DNA of 64,000 nt, taken from NCBI RefSeq assembly GCF_910592395.1, contig NC_088313.1:20352437-20416436 (forward strand). Reading direction: 5' to 3'. The translations under genes were made by a program, and so were the position numbers. Numbering within the stretch: position 1 is the first letter of the stretch; every line of letters begins with the position of its first letter. The stretch comes from Lineus longissimus. Its lineage: Eukaryota > Nemertea > Pilidiophora > Heteronemertea > Lineidae. Below, in pieces: positions 9,001 to 54,335 of the stretch. Below the pieces are notes generated by a model. The model was not told the DNA's origin. It ran no database searches and worked only from the letters and a program-made list of their open reading frames with translations.

Positions 9001-11170
9001 TGTCGAGCCCGTTGAAATCTTACAGGAAATCTGTCGGCAAGCAGTTTAAGTTGATTACACTTCCAACATTTCAAGCATTCATGTTCCTGACGGTAGCTAC
9101 AAGTATCGATTCTTTTGATGTGTAAATCGGCATGTGTCTATCTTAAAACCATTGCTTTGACGCTCAGAGCATGCTGATTAAAGGTTGGGTTCCTTGGAGT
9201 CTTGGTTAAGTATTTCAACGATCCCATACCGGAATAATATTGAGAGATTTACAGTCAAGAATACATAGAGGAAGGCATGCTCATCTCGCTTTCTTGCTTC
9301 GGGTTATTGAGAATCAGCATCAGGACACTTGGTGTCACTGAAGAGATTGGAATAACAACATCAACTTCGCCGGTAAGATTGATTGACTTGCAATTAGCAT
9401 CCTGGCAATAAGAAAGTAAAACAAGGCTGCCTCTTTCATCATTCTATCAGGGTAATGAGTGAAATAAATCGCCTCAGTTCAGCTATTGATATCTTTCACA
9501 ACAAATGAGAGCCATTTGATATCCAATGTTTGTGGAAGACAGCAAGCAACACGACAATTGACTAATTCAGCCGCGCGTTTTCATCAGCTTTCAGCTGTTG
9601 TTTTGGAGTTTCAGATGTGTCGTGATTGTAGATAATCTCTTTATCGGTTTATGTTTGTCTGTAGGCCAGTATTATAAAAGGAACGACTTTATGGGATGAA
9701 ACCTTTCATCCAACTTTCACTTTCTCATTCATTGTTGATTCAGATCATGCATGTTAGCTATTCAAGTTCAAGTCAAACGCCCTGTCAGTGTATCAGCCGT
9801 TACATTGAAATAAATGAAAATGTTGATCCTTTTCAGCGAGCATTGATTGTTATTATTAGTTGTTCGCAATTTTAAGCATCCTTTTTTACAGGTATTTACA
9901 ACAAGGATGAACACATCAACCTCAAATGAAAGCATTATGATGATCCGTTCGGCGTCGATGTAATATATTATTTCAATTGATACAGGAAAGCTCTCAGATT
10001 CTCACTTTCAATCAAATACATGCAATGTATAAGGCAAACCGTATTCAACCAGAACACTGTTTCCATTATTGGCGTGATGGCCTTTGATGTTTCCTCTTGA
10101 TTGAGCACAAGGGAATTTAAAGCGGTATTTTATACAAGTGAGAGTAGATGGTCGTGTCATAATATAGTGTTACACGAAGAATGTCAGTTAGCATTCATTT
10201 ATTCATATCATGCAATGTTCTACTTATGTTAGTGGCCTTCAAATCACACCGGATCGAGATCTATACGTGGTAAAATCAAACGCGGTCAATGATAATCGCG
10301 CCCAGTAGCTTTCCATTGATGGTATCAGTTATCGAAGCCAAGATCATTGGACACAACACGTTCTGGCGGTCGATGCTAAATTCGTATCTCGCGGGGCGAT
10401 CGAATAAATGAAAAGGCCGCGTCGGTTAAAGGTCAATGGTTTGATAATCAGAAGAATCAAACCAGATTGGTCATGCACATGATACTTAAATCTTCAAGGC
10501 TTCTTTCTTTGGTCAGTTCCGAATCCAAAGCACGCACCTTCGGTCATGAATCGATTTGCTGGGATTCTGCCTGGATAGGTGGCCGATACCAAGATGAACC
10601 TTTGACGCCACTATATCAGTATTTCTGATTGAAGTTGTCTCTGTCACAGCTCGGTAATTGATGCTGAAATTTGTCTCCCAGTCTCGAATGTGGAATCGTG
10701 TTCACGAAGCAATGATCAAGGATTAACAAAGGGAGCTTTATGGTAATCCGAGGACACCGTTCTTAGACCTGTCTGTAAATAAACATAGTTGATGTCCGTT
10801 GCTGATAGCAATAGAATTGACTTTGACTTAGTGTTATTGTCTGCATTGCCATTGATCACCAAACATCATAATTTATCATGTCTCCCAAGTGGACGTGATA
10901 TTCATTTCGAGCCGATCATGTTGCTGAAACCCTGCGCAGGATATCGGCAGACAGGCTTGGATACTCTGAACTCCTCATAGTGTGGTCAAGGAGAAAAGCT
11001 TTTCATCTTTCACAGCACAGCTATCACAGAATTAACAAAAGGGATATAATCTATCACAATCATTCGCTAAGATTCGAGATCTCTTATCCATCCTACATAA
11101 AGTATGGATGGACGCTTTTTCTTTTTTGTGAGATCTTGTTTCTTATGATAACGATCTCCAGATTGTTATT

Positions 11171-11390
11171 CAGCCTCATAAGCAAAGTCCCTCTACGTAT
11201 ACATGTATGTCACGAAAAGTCCGGTCCACAAAGGCAAACGGGATTACTTTAATGGGAATGTTGATATTGTTTCGGTCATACTTCAGCCTCATAAGCAAAG
11301 TCCCTCTACGTATATGTCATGAAAAGTCCGGTCCACAAAGGCAAACGGGATTACTTTAATGGGAATGTTGATATTGTTTCGGTCATGCTT
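11171..11390. repeat. Tandem duplication, about 113-bp unit, two copies
   Basis: Copy 1 (11171-11283) and copy 2 (11284-11390) begin with CAGCCTCATAAGCAAAG and end with TTTCGGTCAT. Copy 1 carries about 6 extra bases that create a TACATGTA octamer (11200-11207), absent from copy 2. The remaining positions differ only by scattered substitutions, so the duplication looks recent. Confidence 0.9.
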
Positions 11391-14300
11391 CAATAATGCG
11401 ATTGACAAGGGTAAGAAAGCGAGAGATGTTCCACTTAGGGATGTTAATGTCACGTCACGACACGGACGCCGATATGTATGCATAAAGGTGGTCGGATAAA
11501 TGTTGACTCAGCAAACGTCTTTGATCAACAACGAAATTGTTGCTGACGTTCTTGTCCCTCACGTATATAGTCCATATTGATATGTTCCTTGCAATTACGA
11601 CGTAACGCTATGAAAACTATGATGTGAAATCGAAGTCTAAAAAGTGAGTCTATGTCTGTGTATTGTTACATTGTTATCAAATCAACATGTACATTCTGTG
11701 ATAATCCGATGCAACATATTTAGTCGATCCTACACTGCTGACGTAGCCCATGTCAGTGTCCGATTACATTCGAGTTTGATCACCTCGTCGCGACCACTGC
11801 TGACTGCATCGTAGTGTGAGTACCAGTTACCATGGGAATATAATCCTATATTAATTAACACATCGTAAATGTGATTGGTATCATTGCCGTAAGCGGGAAG
11901 TCATGTGAACTAAATGATATTTCTGATCAACTTGACATCTACCTGGCGAGTGGATAATCGGCTTTTAACGCGCCCTGTAGGTGGTTTCTCGAAGTAGATC
12001 TGCTCTCAAAAATTCTGATGAAAAAATTACGTCGGAGATTCTTCTTCTGTCAAAGAGTAGCACAAATGGCAAAGATGTTAGCTTGTACTTATACACGTAG
12101 CTCATTTCCAGTTGCTCGTTTGTGAGGAATCACCTGCGACAAACCCTGCACAAATTCGGATGAGTTGATGGGCCTGACGTACATGTATGTATTTCATTGG
12201 GCTACTAATGCAGATTGGACATCCTCTCAGCGGTCTATAGAAGCAGAACAATGGTGTCATTGTTGTGAACCCTTTGTGCAGTGATTGTCCGCCGGCGTGT
12301 TTAGGTAAAGCTGGCCTCAAAGACATTCGATTTCCTTTGCCCTTTGTCTTTGAGCCCACCCACTCACAGCATAGCGCTGGTACAAACAACCGATTAGCCG
12401 TCACCTCTTGCCAATTACTTCTTCTCCACGTGCCAGGAGTAATATGCAGCGCATGAGTTCGTAGTCAGCCGGCAATTACCCGTAATCAAACTATTTCCAA
12501 TAGACAGGTTTGAGGACCGTCAGATCCCAAGGTGGTCAGTGATGAAATCATTCCAAGTTGTGATTGATAACAGCAATATCCACCGCTCTAACCACGTGAA
12601 TAATTTCATATCAAGTGAGTAGAATATTGCTCAAGCGATTTTCCCCTTGTGGTCATATTGTCGAACATATTGGTCAGATTATAAATATTAATGGGAATTT
12701 TGTATTCTTGCAAGGAGCGTTGTACGATATTTCATTGCTGGTGTTGATAAATGCTCCCTCTCGTTCCCATTGAGGATTGTGGAGCTCTGCTGGTTACTGA
12801 TTACGGAACTTGCTGAACTCCAGTTTCTCTCCAGAGTCGTCTCAGTCGGGTCGACGGTGTATATCGATGTCCCTTAGATAAGAGAGCCATAACATAATAT
12901 TTGTCGATAGCGAAGTCAGCTTTAAGACTTTTGAAAGTTGATTTACAGAGACTTTACTACTATACACTAAATGCTCGTTGAGTGGATTTTCCTATTGAAA
13001 GATTTATATTTCGAATATGAACCATAAGTCTCTGAAGCGTAACAACACTAACCTTGAATGTTGCAGTGCTAATTGAAATCAGGCCCCTTCAGACATGTCG
13101 GGATAAGGACAACTACCGAGAATCGTGCCGTACGCGGTGAAAAAACCCAACTTTTATTATATTTATCAACCACACACAGCACGTTAGTTTCCTGTACGGA
13201 TTCCTCTTTGAAAAGAAATGTTCCGATATTCGTATCAAAAGCACGCATGTATAAGACTGGCTGTATTTATCGGTGGCGGATGTATACATGTAGCAGCATT
13301 CAGTCATGACAGTGTAATGCAATCACTTGAAGTCTTGGAGAAACCCTAGAGTTGATTACTCTTCTCTTTATCTGAAGAGAAACGTGTTTCAAAAGCAGGA
13401 AGAGTTTGCTTGCTACAGACAAATGTAAAATGAGGGGAGGGGAGGGGGGTCAAGTTTTATGTTGACCCGATCCGACTGGACACTATTAGCCCAAGTGCAT
13501 CTGGCTACAGGTACAATGGCAATACAACTGCTTTTGCGCAATTTAGATAGTCTTCAGAACAATGACAACTGCAGTATGTCCAAGATACACAGCAACAGGA
13601 ATTTGATCCAAACAAAATTGTTTATATTATTACCCCTAATTCATTGATATCCGTTTAATATATGGCTTTGGGCTTTCAGAGGTGTGATCAATCTTCCTGG
13701 TTTCCTTTCAAGTTGGTAATTGGCAGGCTGCGGATGTCCTTCTAAACGGTATCCTTGGGGATATGCGCAATAAAACAGACTGTCGTAATAGATTTATCGA
13801 GATGAACCGATTTGCATGTTCCTTTTTAAATAAGTGAATCCATCATCATTTCTGCTCCGTGAACATTGCAACCCTAGATGAGGAAGATGTTAAATGATCA
13901 AGATTGAGGGAACAGAAGTCATGCGACTATGTGCGTGTCCAATCAAAGGTGTCCCTCAAGGCAGCCATGATGACGTCGTCATAAGAAACGAGACTCGAAA
14001 TGTCAGGGTCGAAATGCAAGACATCATTAAAATCGTTTTTGCTCAATCAATGAATCATCCCGTGACAAATTAGGTGTCAACGTCGACGGATCGAGTTAAG
14101 AAGACTGAGAATGGCACCAGGCATGATTGAAGTTTGATTAAGGCAACGCTGGAGGCATCTTTTTGCTCCGCAGTTGAAATCAGGGACTTCGATTTTTGTA
14201 TGTGTTCAAGTGGAGGACGGTAGCAACAAGAAATACTAGCAGTGTGGCAAAGGGTGATCACTTACAGCTTGCTACCACGGTACCTGAGCTTACTAAGGAG

Positions 14301-20300: not shown

Positions 20301-20814
20301 TACATGTAATTGGCCTAGATATCATAATGATGTTTATGGGGATTGACTACTATCCCAAATGGTATTGATCGCAATTTTTTAGTACTTATAGGTCATGCTA
20401 TTTCGTGGACGAACACAATCTTCCACAGGTGCGTATATCTTTACTGCTTGTATTACTTTACCGGTTTCTCCAAGAGCAAGACAAGACAGGGCAATCAATC
20501 TGTCTGTCTTCGTCAAAGCGCCTCGCAAAGGACCGTTTGAATAGCTGCGATCTTCGATTCAAAATTGAATACAACAATATTCGCTCATTTGCCGTGGTCA
20601 CCGTTGGTGGCAGCGACTTACGAGTAGATTTCAAACCCAGCGATTACCGGATTCACCCGCAGCCGAGAGATCATTTCGTCGGATAGCAGTGATTATAATC
20701 GCGGGTCGCTGCGATTACATCGTTTGTTTCCGAGGCGTCTAACCAAGTCCATCCTACTTTGTCTCTCTAAGTAGCCATCCTTGATTCCTCGTCTCGTTTC
20801 AGATTATTATCATC
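11391..20814. other. Long intergenic region, no gene recognised
   Basis: About 9.4 kb upstream of the kinase gene. Several minus- and plus-strand open frames of 60-100 codons exist (for example 12102-12404, 17234-17545 and 15376-15573). None shows a domain motif, a convincing start context or flanking splice signals that join to another exon. A partial direct repetition of AAGGACxAxTCGGTGTTGATG is visible at about 18319 and 18423. Confidence 0.45.
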
Positions 20815-23800
20815 ATGGCATGCAAGTCCGCTGAAGCCCCAAAATACGACATAGAAATTGACAAGGAGAACTACGAGGAAGGTGTCTACGCTATTCTTGC
20901 CGAGCTAAGACCACAATGGAAGAAGGAGACGATTCAGTTCAGGGTACGTACCGGGAGTCTCTCATTCACATGCCGATTCAGTTCAGGGTACGCACCGGGG
21001 GTCCCTCATTCACATGCCGATTCAGTTCAAGGTACGTACCGGGGGTCTCTCATTCACATGCCGATTCAGTTCAAGGTACGTACCGGGGTATCTCATTCAC
21101 ATGCCGATTCAGTTCAGGGTACGTACCGGGAGTCTCTCATTCACATGCCGATTCAGTTCAAGGTACGTACCGGGGGTCCCTCATTCACAAGCCGATTCAG
21201 TTCAAGGTACGTACCGGGGGTATCTCATTCACATGCCGATTCAGTTCAGGGTACGTACCGAGGGTCCCTCATTCACATGCCGATTCAGTTCAAGGTACGT
21301 ACCGGGGGTATCTCATTCATATGCCGATTCAGTTCAGGGTACGTACCGGGGGTCTCTCATTCACATGCCGATTCAGTTCAAGGTACGTACCGGGGGTCCC
21401 TCATTCACAAGCCGATTCAGTTCAAGGTACGTACCGGAGGACTCTCATTCACAAGCCGATTCATCAGCGGTGTGTGACAATCCTCAAGTCTCTGTCTCCA
21501 TGTGGAAGGTTGGTCACCGACGCACGACGCCGATAGATCGGCCATTCAGCAATACTTATTCTCGTCGAAGTTGATCAGTTAACCTCATCGAAGATGCAGC
21601 TAGTCACCGGAAATATGTTCGTCGTGGGGAAGGGAACCTTTCGTAGCCCTGAAGCCAAATTCGGAATCCAATGTGTGTTGTTTCGTTTCCCGATGATAAC
21701 AATGAAAAGTACCATACGACTAACCCTTTCAGGTGATTGCTCAAGGTATCGTAAACCTTATGGTTGTGTGTCACGTGACAGAAGATTGCAAAGATGCTGT
21801 TGTTGTAAGAGTCTTCGGCAGTCTAATAGCAGCCGTTGTCAACCGAGACCAAGAAATCAAAGTGAACCAATTGTTCAGTGACATGGGCCTTGGTGCAACC
21901 CTGCTCGCCGTCTTCAAGAATGGCATCTGCTCGGGTTTTCTCAAAGGGAAAAGCTTCACGTTTATGGATATGGACAACATTAAAGATTTTGGAACTGCAA
22001 GGTAAGCGAGCCAAAATGACAGCTGCTATCAATAGGCAGGTTTCGCAACCCTTATGCGAACGACGAACTATAAATGTCTTTCGTGTCATCAAGTTCATCG
22101 GGACACTCGTAAATGGTCTTCTATACGAGTCATCGGCTAAATTTTCGGTTGTCGATGAATTACTTTTACAAACTTCCTACTTCGTCCTTCGTCGTTGCTC
22201 GTAAGGGTTGCGGAACTAAACATCATTGCTTCATCTTCTTTAGCTAAGACGAGACAGACTTTGGTGTGTTTCGATCTTTTCTTTGGCGTGCACGGCCAAT
22301 CTTAATCATCAATAACTTTGGGCTTTTTTTCTGCAGGAAGATAGCGAAAGCAATAGCCGCCATCCACTGCAACAATACTGCTAGCCAAGCAAAGGAACTT
22401 GGTATCGGGAAAGGCTCCGACTTCATTGCCTTAGCTGCTGCTGCTCTGGAGGGTTGGCCAATACCCTTCCAAGATAAGGAACTGGAGAAGTGGTAAGCAC
22501 ATTTGCCCTGCTTACAGGTGGAGGTAACGTGATAAGGTCAGTGATGGAAATATCATGCCATATTGCCAATGTTCTGTCCTCACATGTCATTACAATAGGC
22601 CTGTACCATCTCCGCCCTGGTATAAGTTAGACAAGGAAATAGACATACAAATGTAAATCTGACGATTTTGGTACAGAGAAGACAGCAATCCAGTTTAAAA
22701 AGCTAGCCTTCAATATGTGAAGCCGTATGACCCTTTTGGACAACCTCGACCAGCCCGACCGGTATTGTATAGGACCGTCAACCAATTTCTTTCCAGGTTC
22801 TATGAGCGCGTTCCTAAAAAAGATATTCTCAAAGAAGAATTTGCCATCGCGCAAGGGGTAATAGCCGAGATAGATAAGGAAACACATGTCCTGTGTCACG
22901 GCGACCTCAACCCTACGAATTTCATGACAGAGGACGACACCGGTAAGTCAGGGTAACTTGCCTTGATTTCCCCCGCACGAACGGTAGAATATTGGATTAC
23001 CTCCTTCATATAAGATGCAGTGTTCTACCCTCTTCCACACACTCTCACTTCCTACTACTTAACTTTTCTGTTACAAAAATTATGATTGTTTTCTTCAGGT
23101 GACATCAGGCTGGTTGATTTTGAATGTGCTGGATTCAATACCCCTTTCTCAGACCTGTCCACCTTTTTCCTAATATCAGCTGCCGGTAAGTTGATCACTC
23201 AGTTAAGCCAAGAGAGTGACATCTGCCTCTGAAGCTTTTATCACGGACTCGGTGTGGAGCATTGACTGGCAAGGGCATGTTTTAAAGACTGGCAAGCAAC
23301 GTCAGGATGGATATTAAGTCTGAGGGTCTATGCCTGCACTTCCAGATGTATAGCAGAGAGCTACATGTATGCTCCAATCGGATCATCCAAGTATCATCTT
23401 GACCCTCAGTATACCCACAATGTATTGCCATTGATCAGCTTCCATGCTACGCGGCAGAACCTACGGAGGCCATACCGCTGAAAGTTCAGAATGACGAGCA
23501 TGGAGTGGTCAACATTCCAGCGAGTGCAAAGAAAAAGAATACATGTATATGTAAAATTCTTCACCCAGCTTGCCGCTTGTGGTCAGTTGCCGGAGATGCC
23601 ACTGTTGTTGTACTGACCCAGCCATTGCACTGATTGCCAGCGAGTCATCCTTCGCCTTACCAGGCCCACCAGCATTCAGGGTAAATGGTTAAAGGAAGTC
23701 CACCTGATGCATTTTCTTGCCAAACCATTCCAGGTCCTATGTGTACTGACTTAGAATCAGCCCAGCACAGCCCAGAATACCACAGGATATTTCTCCGCGC

Positions 23801-24743
23801 CTATCTGGAGGAAATAAGGCGACAAGATGGCGTGAAGGGCGATGTCAGCGACCGGGAGGTGGAACGATATTATGCCATAGTGGATAGGCTTACTATTGTG
23901 AGTACATGTATAGTTTTCCTCTTCTTCATTTTCTTCTTATCTTCTCCCTTTAGTCCTACTTTCCAAGAAAATGGCCTACATCGAGATTTCCAGCGGAAAT
24001 CTTTGCCTGTGGCGCGTCTACTTGTTTTGCCTTGCAAATGACTGCAACCATTTCAACGAGAGAAAGTCTTTATATCAGGCCCGAGGCAACTGATTAGGCC
24101 TTTACGAAAGAGACATCTGACCTTGAAATAAGGGAAGTTGAAGCATGAGAAGTATGGACCTAGCAGAATCAGATCAGTTTATGACTTTAGATATGAGCTT
24201 TTAATAATATTCTTTTCAGGCAATGCAATTTTATGGTATGATACTCTGTCCCAGCTATCTGGCTAGCAATCCCAACTTGACGGTGGAGGGGATGAACTTT
24301 AAGCAGATTATAACGTAAGTTGTCTCGTAGGAGAGTAGGATCCAGTCCTTTTTACAGGCGTACATTATAGTTTAACACACTGAGAAAGCGATTGCCTGTG
24401 GTATGCACTGAAGGTACGCGGATTTTCATAGTTTAGTAAAATAGCAAAAATGAACCCTTCTCACTTACAATAAGCAGGAGTATCAGGTAAGTTCAACACA
24501 TATGTTTGATATATATGTACCTTGTGACGGTGTAGCTTCAAACAGCCGTTATAAAATACCGTTTCATGATGCAAGATACTGATCATGAGGGGCGTAGCTG
24601 GGGGCAGGGCGGGGACGAATGCTACGCCTCTGGTACAGTATATACAGCCATACTATCACTGTAACTGTATTTTCAGGCCATTTCTGTTGCGTTGGGATTA
24701 CTACGTCAGGTATAAAGACAGAATGTTGTCCAAGATAGATTAG
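20815..24743 (+). CDS. Ethanolamine/choline-kinase-like phosphotransferase, 8 exons, 370 aa
   Basis: Exons: 20815-20943, 21733-22001, 22337-22492, 22797-22942, 23099-23185, 23734-23897, 24220-24314 and 24677-24743. All introns are GT..AG, phases agree, and the joined frame ends at TAG. The family phosphorylates ethanolamine or choline with ATP in the cytosol, the first step of the Kennedy pathway. Residues about 28-45 (LRPQW, then QGIVN) match the family's N-lobe opening. Residues 219-226 (HGDLNPTN) are the catalytic Brenner-type loop with D221 and N226, and D240-F-E242 is the metal-binding DFE. The tail (WDYYVRYK) resembles the family's C-terminal helix. Two oddities: the loop is HGD rather than the HND usual in animal choline and ethanolamine kinases, and the DIGNHF-like stretch after DFE is replaced by SDLSTFF. 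It is therefore a divergent member, and substrate preference cannot be read from sequence. The start at 20815 is the first in-frame ATG of exon 1 and gives a normal family length. Confidence 0.88.
20931..21463 (+). repeat. 44-bp minisatellite, 12 units, seeded on the exon 1 5' splice site
   Basis: Units start at 20931, 20975, 21019, 21063 (43 bp), 21106, 21150, 21194, 21238, 21282, 21326, 21370 and 21414, followed by a 6-base stub. Unit 1 is the last 13 coding bases of kinase exon 1 plus the first 31 bases of intron 1. Every unit repeats the exon end and donor: TTCAGG or TTCAAG followed by GTACGT, except unit 2, which has GTACGC. Units vary at a few sites (GGGTCTCT, GGGTCCCT, GGGTATCT, CACATGCC or CACAAGCC). 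Because 44 is not a multiple of 3 and no unit contains a stop in any register, all three forward frames are open across the array. Confidence 0.95.
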
Positions 24744-29987: not shown

Positions 29988-32900
29988 TTAAATTGGCATC
30001 ATAGGAAAAGGCGACCGCGGCATATACGGAGACGATACCGTCATCGGAGGGATCATGTGAGATAACAGTTGTAAACTGGTCGTCGTTGGGTGTGGGGAAC
30101 CGCCCTGTTGACCTGGACTTCCCATAGGTGGCGTTATAATTCGCGGTGACGACATATTTACTGGGTACATGGATGCGGCTGAAAATCTCTGGTGTTCGGA
30201 GTAGGGTCCGGATAATTGTGGCGCCGTGGTAAACGGGTAACCGACTGGGACTCCGGTCGGCAAGGGACTAGAACTGTCTATGGAGTAACCAGATGGGATG
30301 CAAGTTGGCACAGCGGTCGTATAGGGGGCGGTGGTGTATGGCGGCATGGTGGGTACCTCTGTTGAGTCGCGGCAGGACCGTTTGTCCTTCATACGTCTGT
30401 TCTGGAACCAGGTTTTGACCTGAAAATAACGATAATAGGCATGGATGAACATTCTTTTATCCCGCGATGCAAATTCAATCCCAAAAAGAACATGGCGCGC
30501 GTCAGATCAGAATCGTTGCAAAGGTACAAAATGTTGTTATACTACACATAGATATGGAAGCTGGGACAGTACTGAGCGTAGAGCCACTAGAGGGCGACCC
30601 TGGTATAACATGTCTCCGTGGTTGTGACGTTGTCTTCGGAGCAGGTAAGGTTGATTACTACACTTTGTCGATGACCACATTTGAGAGAAAACATTATCAT
30701 TTGCTTGGACTTACCTGTTGGTCAGACAGTCCCAGTTTCTCGGCCAAATCTCCCCGGTCACTTGGAGCTAAGTATTTCGTCGTCCTAAACCTTCGCTCTA
30801 ACTCAGCTATCTGTTCAGCAGAAAACGATGTGCGCGATTTCTTTCGTCTTTGTCCATCTTCTCCGTTGCCATCTGAGGGAGTTTCTGAGGCTGCTGCAAT
30901 GATAAAGGTTGATTACACTGTTAATGTACAGACATGTCCATAAAGGAAGGAAAGAAATACGTTTTGTACATGTACGTGTGGTTTCAACTTTGTCCAAAAA
31001 CGGATGTGGTCTATGCTACACAACTGCGGCTATATTGTAGAGAAAACGACAATCCCGATTATCATGTTATGCAAATTTTATGCATCAATGTTGCGGAGCA
31101 TGTGCCAGTCTGATGATCTTTGTAACATTATCATGCGTAACGCCATCTCAAATTGTCTCTGACAAAGACAGTCCATGACATCTTTTGATGATATTCGTCG
31201 TCATCTTGAAGACAGTCAATTGAACATTTGATGTAAGGCAACGTAATGTCACGATGGACAAAAAACAGCATTGTGTCGTAACAAGCAGAATAGCCTGTGT
31301 TCTTCGGTATTGTGATTTGAAACATGAAGTTTCTGAGACCAAATTTGAATAAGCAGCAAAGTAAGATACGAGACAAAATTGCTTTACATGCTGTTAGGGC
31401 ACTGTCACACCACATGCATGACATGGAGTGTTTGTTATCCAAAAAATGTATTAGGTAGTTCAGTTGTTGTGACATTGGAACATAATCGCACATTTTTGTA
31501 AATGTCCTCACAATTTTACTGCCATTGTGTTCTCAGACCCCCGCGATTTGAATGATGGGATTTAGGCGTCGCCATGGTTACGGCCATCCATGGATGTGCT
31601 TACACGACATCCTGCAACCATATCCGGAAGCGCATTCCCCGCCATGTCTGCCATCTCATTCCGCGTGTGCTAGCCGTATATATCGATTCTATAAAGCGGC
31701 CAGTCGCCGGAATCGATAACGATTATAAATCCTTCAGTGCGTAATGGGAGTATGACACGTGCATCGTGCATTTGGAAACACGGATGCACGACTGGTTGAG
31801 TTCACAGTCTTCGAGAGGTGGAAAATGACATTGGCAGATAGTCACTGATAGCACTTGTCAGATAGTCACTGTCAGTTCAGAAGAATCAGAGAACGAAATT
31901 TATAAACGCCTGTATGTGACGCAGTGCGTTTAAGGGACATTTTGAACATGCATGATGTTATATCATTAGGAGAAAACTCGCTGATCAGATGCCACATATA
32001 TTGTACTTATCAGTCACACAGTCATGCAGTTGTTTGTCAACTGAAGTGATGAATTCAAAATCTGTTGTGGACAGACGTTATTGCATGTAGAAAACGTCAC
32101 TGTCCTCAACCGATTCGATCTTGAATCAGGAGTAGTAGATAAAGATACTTCAAAAACGAGATGAAGCATATACTAGCCAAATACAGAGAAGTCCTGGCAA
32201 TGAAGAAGTAAAAGATAAATGGGTTTAAATTGGAAGTGACTACTAACCTGGTGAAATTGGCCGAGAATCGGGGTGGCGTCCATCAGCACCAGATGGCAAG
32301 GATTGCGTTTGCTCTTTGCGTTCCTGGTAGAAATTGTCTCTGTTTTCGGGAGTTACTATCTCCCTGTGTTCGTATGGAGTTTGATCCTTTTGTTCGTGGT
32401 GCACAATATCCCTGTGATGAGGTATTTGGCCTCCGAATTCAACTGGAATTTGGTCGCGGTGCTGGTGAGGAAACTGGTCATACTGATGAGGAACCCGTTC
32501 ATGTTCGGGTGAAATTCGACCACTGTGTTGAGAAGTCTGCTGCCTGTATTCCTGAGAGTTTGAGTCTACGTCCCTGCTATGTGAATCTTGACCCCAGTGC
32601 TGAGAAATTCTGGCATTGTCCTCATGAATAAGTTGTTCCCTGTGTTCACGTAAAATCTGGTCCCGGAAATCTGGTTGTGATCCCTGAGTATTCGATGGGA
32701 AATCTGACGTTCTTTGCGGCTCCTCCTCATGCAATTTACGTTTGAGATTCAATTCGGAAGGTTGAATAGGTGCTGCAGATTGAAGAGTCGTGAGATTCTG
32801 CGAGGTAGGGACTGGTGCGATCATACCACCGTAACGCGCCTGGTAGGTCCTATGGTCGCCGATTGCCGCGGACATCACGGGTGCAGGGATGGGATACAGT

Positions 32901-33193
32901 CGCGTTCCCGCACCAGGGTACGGTAGATACGGCTCAGGACTAAGGTTGAATCGTTTCGGAGCTTCCGACGGCTTCATGAGGTTCTCGATTGAGAATTTCG
33001 TTGTGTTCGGCGCGTCCAACATGGCTGTGTCTCGTTGTGTTGTGATCGCTCGCGTGTTTGACCTGGTATGCTCCTGAGAATCGACTGTCGTGAGAGAGAG
33101 CGGTGCGTGTGCTATTGTCGCGATATTAGCATATGAAGACGGCGTCAACAGACGAGTGGCTGTTTTGTGTTCCCCTGGGGTCCTTGTTGACAT
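29988..33193 (-). CDS. NK-like (ANTP-class, Vent/Bar-type) homeobox transcription factor, 3 exons, 518 aa
   Basis: Exons in order of transcription: 33193-32248, 30893-30715 and 30419-29988, with GT..AG borders and matching phases (1, then 0). The homeodomain covers residues 332-391. R5, F8, Q44, W48, F49, Q50, N51 and R53 are all present, and helix 3 reads VKTWFQNRRMKDKR. The intron between homeodomain positions 44 and 45 is common in NK-like genes. T47 and RMK suggest kinship with Vent, Bsx and Bar types, but KYLAPSDRGDLAEKLGLSDQQ does not clearly fit one family. Residues 66-73 (KFSIENLM) form an eh1-like Groucho-binding repressor motif. Residues about 180-305 are a His/Gln/Arg-rich degenerate repeat, and the C-terminus is rich in Pro, Ser, Thr and Met. 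It should be a nuclear DNA-binding protein, probably a repressor. The start could instead be M58, just upstream of the eh1 motif. Confidence 0.85.
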
Positions 33194-51100: not shown

Positions 51101-54100
51101 TCGGTCTGTTACAGTGGACGAAGCTTCAGAAAAAGCAATGATTGAAGAGAAATGAGAAGAAGTTACCAACTCCTGATGAACAGTAACACGTTTTAATGGT
51201 TTCATGTTCACTTACTCGTATTACTTCGGCCATTTCGCTCTCCTCAATAGCACCATTTCGGTCGATGTCGTACAGTCGGAATGCCAAATCAAGCTTGTCT
51301 TCAGGGTTGCCGTCTTGTGTTATACTAATTGCCTGCGAATGAAGTAGATCAGTCAGAGACAAGAACATTATCATGACGACACAAAAAAAACAGACATACA
51401 GATTTCATATTGACATTTCAAGATGATAGGGTCTCGAAATGGCCAGTTTCTGTCTTCAGTTACGAAAAATACGCATACGATCAGCTTACCCTCTGAGTAG
51501 ATCAGCCCAAAAGCAAGGTAAGAGCCCAATATCAGTATTCAACAGGGGTTTAACTTGAGCAAAATCAACTCAAACAAGCTAGACAATAAACATAGGATCC
51601 CTGAGCTTTAGGATACATCGTGAGCCATGTATCAACTTCAGAATGTACTCTCCCGACTTTCCCAAATAAGACCACATTATCAGCATCAAGTATTGCGCTA
51701 TTAGAAGTTGAAGAGTTAAAGTTAAAAAGTGTTTTCCTTTCATGTCGAAAACCGCATTTAACTCGTACAAATGAAATTCCAACAAGACAATAGGTTATTC
51801 TAATGAGGGCAATTTAAGGAATATTTTTTAAGGAAATGCACGAAATTTCTGCAATTCTCCCGTCTGCGTTGCCAAGGCCACCGAGAGAGGAAAACCATGT
51901 CAAGAGATGGAATGTCAACGAATACACGAAATACTAATATGGGATGAGCTGATGAGGAGGGTTATGTGATCATGTGACTTCTCAGGCTCAGTGATGCTCT
52001 GTTGTAAAAGCACACGCATTGACCTTTGCAATCACAGACCCGCCCATGCGTTGCCACGGTTCAGCAAGTGGTTCGTTTCTGTCCATTCGTATCGCCCAAT
52101 CACCTTATTCCTTATAACTTCCTGTTCAATTGGCCAATGAGAACCCCCCCCCCCCCGTTAAACCAATGAAATCTATAAACTGAACCAATCAGAAATCGTA
52201 TTTACATAGACTTCCGCTCTAATCGCAGGCCAAATGGGGAAGTGATGAATGCGAGATAGAATTTCGTATTCAGCTTGGTTATTTTCTTGCCCGTGACTGT
52301 TTACCGGTGGTTGTCAAGGATGCCTCTCCTTTCAACGTTAATTGCCTTGGTGATCTCACATATGATGAGAAATTTGACACCATTCTATTGACGTTTTTGC
52401 TAAAAGCGACTCTGACCCGCCTCGTAATGGAATGGCTAAGTTGTGTACCCGGATATCACGGTCACCAAGCAGGAGTACACACAATCACTGCGTGCGCAGT
52501 TAAACCACGACATTGACTTCCGTTTCGGACGCGACTGTGACATTATTAAGAAATTTGATACACCGTGGAAAAGGGGCAGTGAAATCTGCATTTTTATGTT
52601 TCCTGTGAAATAGTCAGCAATGCATTTCACTTCTCCGTCGTACCACTTCTTATGTCTACACGACCATGACACCAAAAAGAGACACCACAAAATAACTGAC
52701 ATCGACATCGTGCTGTGCATTATGCATCATTGTTTATTTTTGATCAGCTATCAATTAATAGGTTTCAAAATAAACGACGGTCGATGAACCAGGCGAGACC
52801 TGATAGCTCTAAATCACTTGTAATCATCTACATCTGTCGAGCGCCAGTCCTGCTCAGCGCTATTCCTATGGCCAAAAGAACCCCAACAATCGACACGAGA
52901 TATGCCGCCGACCGTCTCCGACATGAAGTGATCGAAATCGGCGGATGTCTTCGCAGACGGGACCTGATGACATGGAGCCATAATCACTGGGAAATGCCAT
53001 TGAATTTTTATATCAAACCAAGCGAGTGTAATAGACATGATAAATGTGACTTCGGAGTGCATCTTAGTTACTTAAGGGCTGGCTGCATGCCGAGGCAAAG
53101 ATGCTCCAGCTAGTTTTAATTTTTAGTTAAACCGCTTCATCGAATTGACGAATGAAGGGAATGGACAGATTAAATGTGTAATTATCCCCTATCATCGCCA
53201 AAGGTTTTCCAATATAAGGGAAAGGTAGGGAAGACAATGCCGGACCGACATGTCTCATAATGATATAGAGATATTGTTTAGAGGACAGAGAAGTGCATGT
53301 ACCACCACTCTGTTCCGATGTACGATATGTCATCCCTGCATGTAAGTTGGTGAAGATGTCATATTCTCCCGTTAGTCCTAGCTGTTAAAGATTATGAAAC
53401 TGGCCATGCTGTTCACCTCTCCAAGACACCAAATAATTGGAAAAACGGTAATGTAAGGTGACGAGTTTTTTTAGCCAATTACATTGCCACAAATGGGCAG
53501 ATTCCGGCACCTACACGTTCGTGACAATATGACATTGCTTATTTATCTACTTCCCTCAGTTACAGTTTAGTCCTGTTCTCAACCACCTACATCTCAACCA
53601 AAGATTGGACCCATTAATCATTCACAAAAAGTCTGGTTGCTTTCCTATTAGGGCTAAATCTTTCATATCCTGTCCGTACACTAACTTCGTGACTTCAAAT
53701 TAAATGGCAATTTATTTTCCTGGTCATATTAACCTATGTACGAAAGCGGAAACCACTGAAGCAACATTCAGAGAAAGGTTCCGGCATTTGCTCAAATTCT
53801 CATTTATTTTGTGATGAATTATTCACATTGAATTAACCATTAGTGGGCTTGAGTAACTGACGAAAGTTCAGGTCAGTGGTGGCAGGCATGCTGCGCCAAG
53901 TCTCTTTCGAAGAACTTGAGCTTTGCCTAAATCTGAGTGTGAGATAGAAAAACGCAACTGGTAAATGGTATTGAAACTTACCACTAAAAATTCCTTAAAA
54001 TCGATTTTCCCACTGTTGTCTATATCGAATGTTCTGAACAGGTGCTCGTAGAATGATTTTGCTTTGCCATCGGGGAAGAGCTGGGAATATATGTCAAGGA

Positions 54101-54137
54101 ATTTGTTCCGTGAGATTTCACCCTCTGGACAGTCTTT
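48101..54137 (-). CDS. Neuronal calcium sensor family EF-hand protein, partial (three 3' exons)
   Basis: Exons in transcription order: 54137-53982 (52 codons), 51332-51216 (39 codons) and 48358-48101 (85 codons plus TGA), all phase 0 with GT..AG borders. The first visible exon opens with KDCPEG, the degenerate EF1 with the CPxG signature of this family. EF2 (DIDNSGKIDFKE), EF3 (DIDRNGAIEESE) and EF4 (DENSDGQLTKEE) all keep the calcium ligands at positions 1, 3, 5 and 12. AISIT and AIYKMVG are family landmarks. These proteins are cytosolic to membrane calcium switches, usually N-myristoylated. The first exon, which would carry MGxxxSK and the start, was not found up to 64000 and may lie outside the window. 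The C-terminus is longer and more acidic and basic (ending KEKDAEPDDESF) than the short tails of hippocalcin or frequenin, so this is a divergent invertebrate member. Confidence 0.87.
48374..48864. repeat. Dispersed element, short copy in the last intron of the calcium-sensor gene
   Basis: Matches the ends and most of the interior of 42130-42941 but lacks about 325 internal bases (it jumps from ATGTTATTTC to GTTGACCTTCATGTCC). Its left edge lies only about 14 bases from the intron's AG at 48359-48360, so branch point and upstream tract of this 3' splice site fall inside the element. Confidence 0.75.
52096..52189. promoter_or_regulatory. Cluster of five CCAAT boxes around a C13 tract
   Basis: CCAAT occurs at 52096, 52134, 52163 and 52185, and as ATTGG at 52129. 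A run of 13 C lies at 52144-52156. Such spacing (about 20-40 bases) is typical of NF-Y-dependent promoters or of LTR-type promoters. The cluster lies inside an intron of the calcium-sensor gene. Open frames follow on the plus strand (52307-52516, and a 55-codon frame at about 52446-52611), but I recognise no protein. It could be an alternative promoter or an unrecognised gene's start. Confidence 0.4.
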
Positions 54138-54218
54138 CTGCAAGAAGAAGAACATGGGGGATGGTCGTGTATCACATAGAGCTACAAGGTATACGGCCAA
54201 ACCTTCACCGAGGCGACG

Positions 54219-54335
54219 AAGGGGTCGGACACGCCGGCGAACAATGATTTCACAAAGGGCTCGGACCAGCCCGGACAAAGGGGTCGGCCACGCCGGCGAA
54301 AAATGATTTTACAATGAAACCATTGTTCGCCGGCG
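54219..54335. repeat. Combined direct and inverted repeat with CGCCGGCGAA core
   Basis: A 36-bp block starting AAGGGGTCGG at 54219 recurs at 54278 (59-bp period) with few changes. In addition, CGCCGGCGAACAATG at 54232-54246 is perfectly complementary to CATTGTTCGCCGGCG at 54321-54335. The GC-rich composition differs from the surroundings. It lies upstream of the first visible exon of the calcium-sensor gene. A small inverted-repeat transposon remnant is a possible source. Confidence 0.8.

Follow-up and report, generated by a model that had tools for sequence, protein, structure and literature searches.

The closest described counterpart of the array reported here lies in the human IFI6 gene (G1P3, 6-16), in which Turri, Cuin and Porter reportedly found a minisatellite with multiple splice donors in 1995. 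The IFI6 repeat unit is 12 bp long and keeps the reading frame, and the array begins near the end of an exon. The consulted part of PMC4526556 describes multiple donors in the IFI6/G1P3 minisatellite and the use of two downstream repeat units, giving three mRNA species. Tandem duplication is also the basis of the AGGT model of intron gain (the Rogers model), for which the part of PMC4974935 that was consulted gives ATP2A1, the fission-yeast genes SPOG_01682 and SOCG_00815 and potato RdRp as cases, and multi-copy AGGT arrays are reported there in fission yeast. The array considered here, which spans an exon-intron boundary in the nemertean Lineus longissimus, resembles that of IFI6/G1P3 in starting within the end of an exon and in having a splice donor in every unit. 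It differs in the length of its unit (44 nt, or 43 in unit 4, against 12) and, because a 44-nt step shifts the frame, only 4 of its 11 downstream donors are in frame; the gene and phylum are unrelated, and the donors are known from sequence alone. The difference in unit length and frame is one of form and not of principle. The donor minisatellite was known before in kind from human IFI6/G1P3, and by analogy the present array, which is anatomically like the human one, would work alike if its downstream donors were used. The likeness to AGGT intron gain is that tandem duplication supplies extra splice signals; here, however, the duplicated segment spans an existing boundary and is not exonic (14 exon and 30 intron bases, AGGT occurring in 7 of 12 units), nor is a new intron apparent. 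An ordinary intronic minisatellite would share the 12 units, the 92% matches and the mostly intronic position, but not a unit that includes an exon end and an intact donor. Among the matches listed in the open-licence literature, no title concerned this locus or a nemertean donor minisatellite, and the parts of PMC2915984, PMC2572611, PMC3039753 and PMC12783039 that were consulted contained no second donor minisatellite.

Judged by its predicted protein, the host of the array is an ethanolamine kinase 1-like gene. Within the window, meaning the whole stretch of 64,000 nucleotides that was analysed, an exon model built from the sequence joins donor 1 (last exon base 20943) to 21733 and gives a 370-residue kinase. 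This protein was 100% identical over all 370 amino acids to the NCBI record 'ethanolamine kinase 1-like [Lineus longissimus]', which was its sole match among 7997 scored candidates and forms a cluster of one member. The same identity supports the first coding exon (20815..20943, plus strand), which ends at donor 1 (AGG/GTACGT, the slash marking the exon edge), and the next coding exon (21733..22001, plus strand), whose acceptor AG ends at 21732. The six remaining coding exons (22337..24743, plus strand) were placed by the exon model and by Pfam PF01633, and lie at 22337-22492, 22797-22942, 23099-23185, 23734-23897, 24220-24314 and 24677-24743, the last with the stop codon. PF01633 (Choline/ethanolamine kinase) was detected at residues 43-313 of the donor-1 protein (117.2 bits, against a Pfam cut-off of 29), and the strongest match to a choline kinase of solved structure (3c5i) starts at residue 38; a structure predicted from the kinase sequence by itself was uninformative (mean pLDDT 36.8). 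A search for a paralogue of the kinase elsewhere in the window with tblastn gave only two rows outside the gene, with E values of 3.3 and 6.8. An acceptor-like TCTCGTTTCAG, ending in TTTCAG, is present at 20792-20802, 12 bases before the kinase ATG, from which the first exon may extend over 20803-20943 with an untranslated exon upstream. A bacterial promoter scan was set aside as inapplicable to an animal gene.

The array was located by Tandem Repeats Finder at 20930-21463 on the plus strand, with a period of 44, 12.2 copies, 92% matches and a score of 907. When it was anchored on the word CGATTCA, 12 units were resolved, eleven measuring 44 bp and unit 4 measuring 43 bp, followed by a 7-nt partial copy, CGATTCA, that forms the right edge of the array (21457..21463, plus strand). 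Each unit copies 14 coding bases from the exon end and 30 bases from the start of the intron, and the array, 534 bp in all, is intronic except for its first 14 bases. The central claim of the initial annotation, that a minisatellite has here multiplied an exon-intron boundary into 12 donors, was thus borne out by Tandem Repeats Finder and by the mapping of units and donors. Its unit of 44 bp holds for all units except unit 4, and its division into 13 exon and 31 intron bases from 20931 was out by a single base. The last exon bases of donors 1 to 6 are 20943, 20987, 21031, 21075, 21118 and 21162, and those of donors 7 to 12 are 21206, 21250, 21294, 21338, 21382 and 21426. The exon edge reads AGG in 5 of the 12 units and AAG in 7, as AGG/GTACGT in four units, AGG/GTACGC in unit 2 and AAG/GTACGT in the other seven; the same annotation had correctly read TTCAGG or TTCAAG followed by GTACGT, with GTACGC in unit 2, GTACGT being present in 11 of 12. 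Unit 1 (20930..20973, plus strand) carries donor 1 after 20943 and is identical in sequence to unit 5, and unit 2 (20974..21017, plus strand) is the only unit without the GGTACGTACC palindrome. A degenerate 13th unit past 21463 was not supported, as 172 of 500 shuffles scored as well. A 22-mer taken from the core of the unit matched the window at 12 places when up to 3 mismatches were allowed, always within the array, and had no match in 100 shuffles, and a blastn search for unit copies elsewhere in the window returned a single 16-nt row outside the gene (E 0.46). No match to Rfam was obtained anywhere in the window at gathering thresholds.

Several other features were observed in the window. 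The region at 2077-2206 holds short repeats (about 15 nt each, like GGTAAAAATGGCTAC) followed by partial reverse complements, which form a foldback-like element with arms at 2077-2100/2183-2206 (88%) and 2110-2130/2146-2166 (90%). A two-copy tandem duplication of about 107-113 bp lies at 11169-11392; Tandem Repeats Finder gave it 93% matches, and identity in the ungapped blocks was 95% and 100%. Three open frames on the minus strand were also noted: one at 29988-30452 whose product includes the 15 C-terminal residues of a homeodomain (PF00046, 21.8 bits, just below the cut-off of 22.9), one at 32243-33193 without a Pfam match at E up to 0.01, and one at 53868-54278 in which a pair of EF-hands was detected (PF13833, 36.5 bits; cut-off 28).

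With regard to origin, a 44-bp segment across the kinase exon-intron boundary would have been tandemly duplicated and then expanded to 12 copies. On its left, the array opens with CGATTCA (20930-20936), where the preceding base, 20929, mismatches the unit, and the right edge is CGATTCA as well. A single-copy ancestor would accordingly have had this word twice at a distance of 44 bp, which would suffice for slipped duplication. The first duplication probably arose through slippage or unequal exchange between these two 7-bp words, and it is plausible that this direct repeat was its seed. The units differ on average at 3.1 of 44 positions, units 6 and 11 are identical, as are units 1 and 5, and 10 distinct sequences occur among the 12. 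Such low divergence and identical unit pairs are as expected for a young or homogenised array. Higher-order repeats were sought at lags 1 to 8, none of which was significant (lowest p 0.116, at lag 5).

The reading that we favour, as the more probable one, is that a repeat has expanded in the ordinary way at an interesting place, most splicing being at unit 1. Because the copies sit downstream of the original boundary, the gene would still splice mainly from unit 1 to 21733 and the normal 370-residue kinase would still be made, the 11 extra donors being passengers that are rarely used, silent or leaky. It is most likely, as far as can be judged from the DNA, that donor 1 dominates in the RNA, and the NCBI predicted protein uses this donor. 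Against donor 1 it counts that, where several donors are bound, the one nearest the intron may prevail. The principle of exon definition, by contrast, favours a short exon. With the acceptor at 20802 in use and an exon start at 20803, the exon would measure 141 nt with donor 1 and 185-624 nt with the other donors, so donor 1 would be favoured by exon definition; the short exon and the adjoining weak donor of unit 2 are the probable reasons for its choice. Seven of the 11 downstream donors shift the frame, with a predicted stop after 58-238 residues (58 for the product of the unit 2 donor). Stops with exon junctions downstream make an mRNA a substrate for decay, as a rule, and since six exon junctions remain downstream in the frameshifted mRNAs, these are predicted decay substrates and would probably be cleared by nonsense-mediated decay. 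The other four downstream donors, all reading AAG/GTACGT on the plus strand, would give longer in-frame proteins of 414, 443, 487 and 531 residues, namely those of unit 4 (21062..21104, donor after 21075, +44 residues), unit 6 (21149..21192, donor after 21162, +73), unit 9 (21281..21324, donor after 21294, +117) and unit 12 (21413..21456, donor after 21426, +161). As every unit copies the exon end, the junction in these four forms is near-native (PIQFK-VIAQG, compared with TIQFR-VIAQG in the donor-1 protein), and because the copied exon end restores most of the residues that would be lost (the Pfam match starting at 43 and that to 3c5i at 38), the longer kinases might still fold. In the protein search with the donor-1 kinase, whose length range takes in all four in-frame isoforms (414-531 residues), no inserted isoform was found among the 7997 candidates sharing most words with it. 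A search with the 220-residue read-through ORF, whose length range includes six of the seven frameshifted products (one of them at its edge) and excludes the 58-residue product, retrieved only the NCBI kinase among 7357 candidates at E up to 10. Since the databases hold predicted proteins, the lack of an isoform in them is weak evidence, and it leans only weakly against abundant in-frame products of a ladder.

A switch among several donors was the strongest competing explanation, and we regard it as possible though clearly less probable. Several donors would then be appreciably used, giving a ladder of mRNAs made up of in-frame forms (+44-161 residues, with the IQFK-VIAQG junction) and decay-prone frameshifted forms that lower kinase output, and repeat number would tune the ratio, as in IFI6/G1P3 but in longer steps. 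The initial annotation had likewise suggested that the array could produce such a ladder, and that it could buffer splicing or differ between individuals. Duplex energies with the U1 5' end were -7.8 kcal/mol for the AAG units and -7.2 for the other AGG units, while unit 2, at -5.0, pairs with U1 most weakly of all; those of the six other donors of the kinase gene ranged from -5.7 to -9.5. The 12 donors are thus near-equal in U1 pairing with the exception of unit 2, and the earlier description of near-equal sites stands for 11 units but fails for this one, while its view of AAG as a better donor context than AGG agrees with this simple calculation. The AAG donors (7 of the 11 downstream) are slightly stronger than donor 1, and the only weakened donor is its nearest rival, a coincidence of 1 in 11 by simple counting. 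The use of downstream repeat units as donors in IFI6, as given in the consulted part of PMC4526556, offers a precedent by analogy. All four in-frame downstream donors read AAG, compared with 3 of the 7 out of frame; this association, however, was not significant (about 0.11, hypergeometric count by hand). The array is also free of stops in all three forward frames, which makes in-frame isoforms possible, but this was rejected as a coding signal, since chance alone gives no stop in 10% of units after shuffling and in 8.5% of 44-base stretches drawn at random from the window; the sole Pfam match of the read-through ORF was WW_USP8 (18.6, against a cut-off of 23.8). Eleven of the 44 unit positions vary, seven of them consecutively (25-31), and seven variable positions in any 7-position stretch had a simulated p of 0.00044. 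Variation affects 2 of the 24 positions 1-24, which hold the exon copy and the donor, and 9 of the 20 positions 25-44 (Fisher p 0.012, with a split picked after the data were seen; p 0.044 with the split 1-20/21-44). The low variation at positions 1-24 may reflect constraint on the exon copy and donor, which would suit a switch, but the variable cluster may simply be a mutational hotspot at the G-run, which accounts for it equally well. The absence of an inserted isoform from the results of both protein searches also weighs against the switch.

Far less probable is a role for the array at the level of DNA or chromatin, in which a dimeric DNA-binding protein would bind the 11 GGTACGTACC palindromes close to where the gene starts, or the array would be a hotspot of recombination or slippage. 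A perfect 10-bp palindrome is indeed present in 11 of the 12 units, and a minisatellite, MSY2 at DDX3Y, is proposed in the consulted part of PMC3039753 to act in a promoter domain; a 10-bp palindrome, however, also occurred in 4.6% of shuffled units.

The donor itself sits in this self-complementary 10-mer in 11 of 12 units, so that pairing between neighbouring donors is possible, and a similarly improbable proposal is that of a length-coded splicing rheostat. Here, the self-complementary donors (GGUACGUACC) of neighbouring units would pair and so hide each other and the single change in unit 2 would expose donor 1, so that changes in unit number or in unit 2 would shift the balance between the normal kinase, the longer in-frame kinases with a restored junction and the decay-prone transcripts, and the dosage of this phospholipid-pathway kinase would be set by a heritable repeat number. 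When pairing was limited to spans of at most 120 nt, the predicted unpaired value of donor 1 was 0.69, compared with 0.22-0.30 for the other 11 and 0.70 for a single-copy control. Donor 1 was the most open at 7 of 12 spans (50, 90, 100, 110, 120, 130 and 180 nt) and tied at 150, but was not at the other four (70, 80, 220 and 300 nt), nor in further predictions with a span of 60 nt or without a limit; in nine shortened transcripts with at least 2 donors it was the most open in four, tied in one and not in four. Restoring the T of unit 2 in silico lowered the accessibility of donor 1 at 11 of 12 spans and raised it at 300. Of 60 control arrays in which the donor was kept and the rest of the unit shuffled, 14 equalled or exceeded the consensus array in closure (control mean 0.31, sd 0.12, against 0.23), and the six other donors of the gene gave 0.19-0.49. 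The fold z-score of -2.70 (20 shuffles) says little, as the shuffles destroy the repeat. RNA structure was therefore rejected as a selector of the donor, given that the outcome depends on the span setting and that the masking lies within the range of the control arrays.

Two further explanations can be given very little weight. The units might combine an acceptor with a donor, whether for recursive splicing, as 6-nt microexons (TTCAGG/TTCAAG) or for stepwise removal of the array, or the array might be a nascent intron under the AGGT tandem-duplication model. From unit to unit, CTCAT, which is branch-site-like by consensus, precedes TTCAG and the donor, and AGGT is present in the seven AAG units. 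Fission-yeast tandem 24-bp AGGT segments, with introns that cross the duplicates, are described in the consulted part of PMC4974935. The distance from a donor to the acceptor of the next unit is only 37-38 nt, however, the pyrimidine tract looks weak, and the NCBI protein needs no such junction, all of which makes this explanation very unlikely. An array of 534 bp is short relative to HiFi reads, and a false expansion or collapse is unlikely because the 12 units comprise 10 distinct sequences. That the copy number is an artefact of assembly or polishing was considered the least likely of all, for although the consulted part of PMC8593623 reports that short reads were used for a single polishing round, a step prone to error in repeats, it also reports HiFi reads and assembly with hifiasm.

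If only donor 1 is used, the locus represents an ordinary repeat expansion that is tolerated because the array lies downstream of the original site. Studies of how the spliceosome chooses between similar 5' splice sites usually rely on constructed minigenes, and a single natural transcript with 12 near-identical donors at 44-nt spacing offers a test of positional 5' splice site choice. The array would add a further donor minisatellite from a very different animal lineage, and its copy number could be a natural variable.
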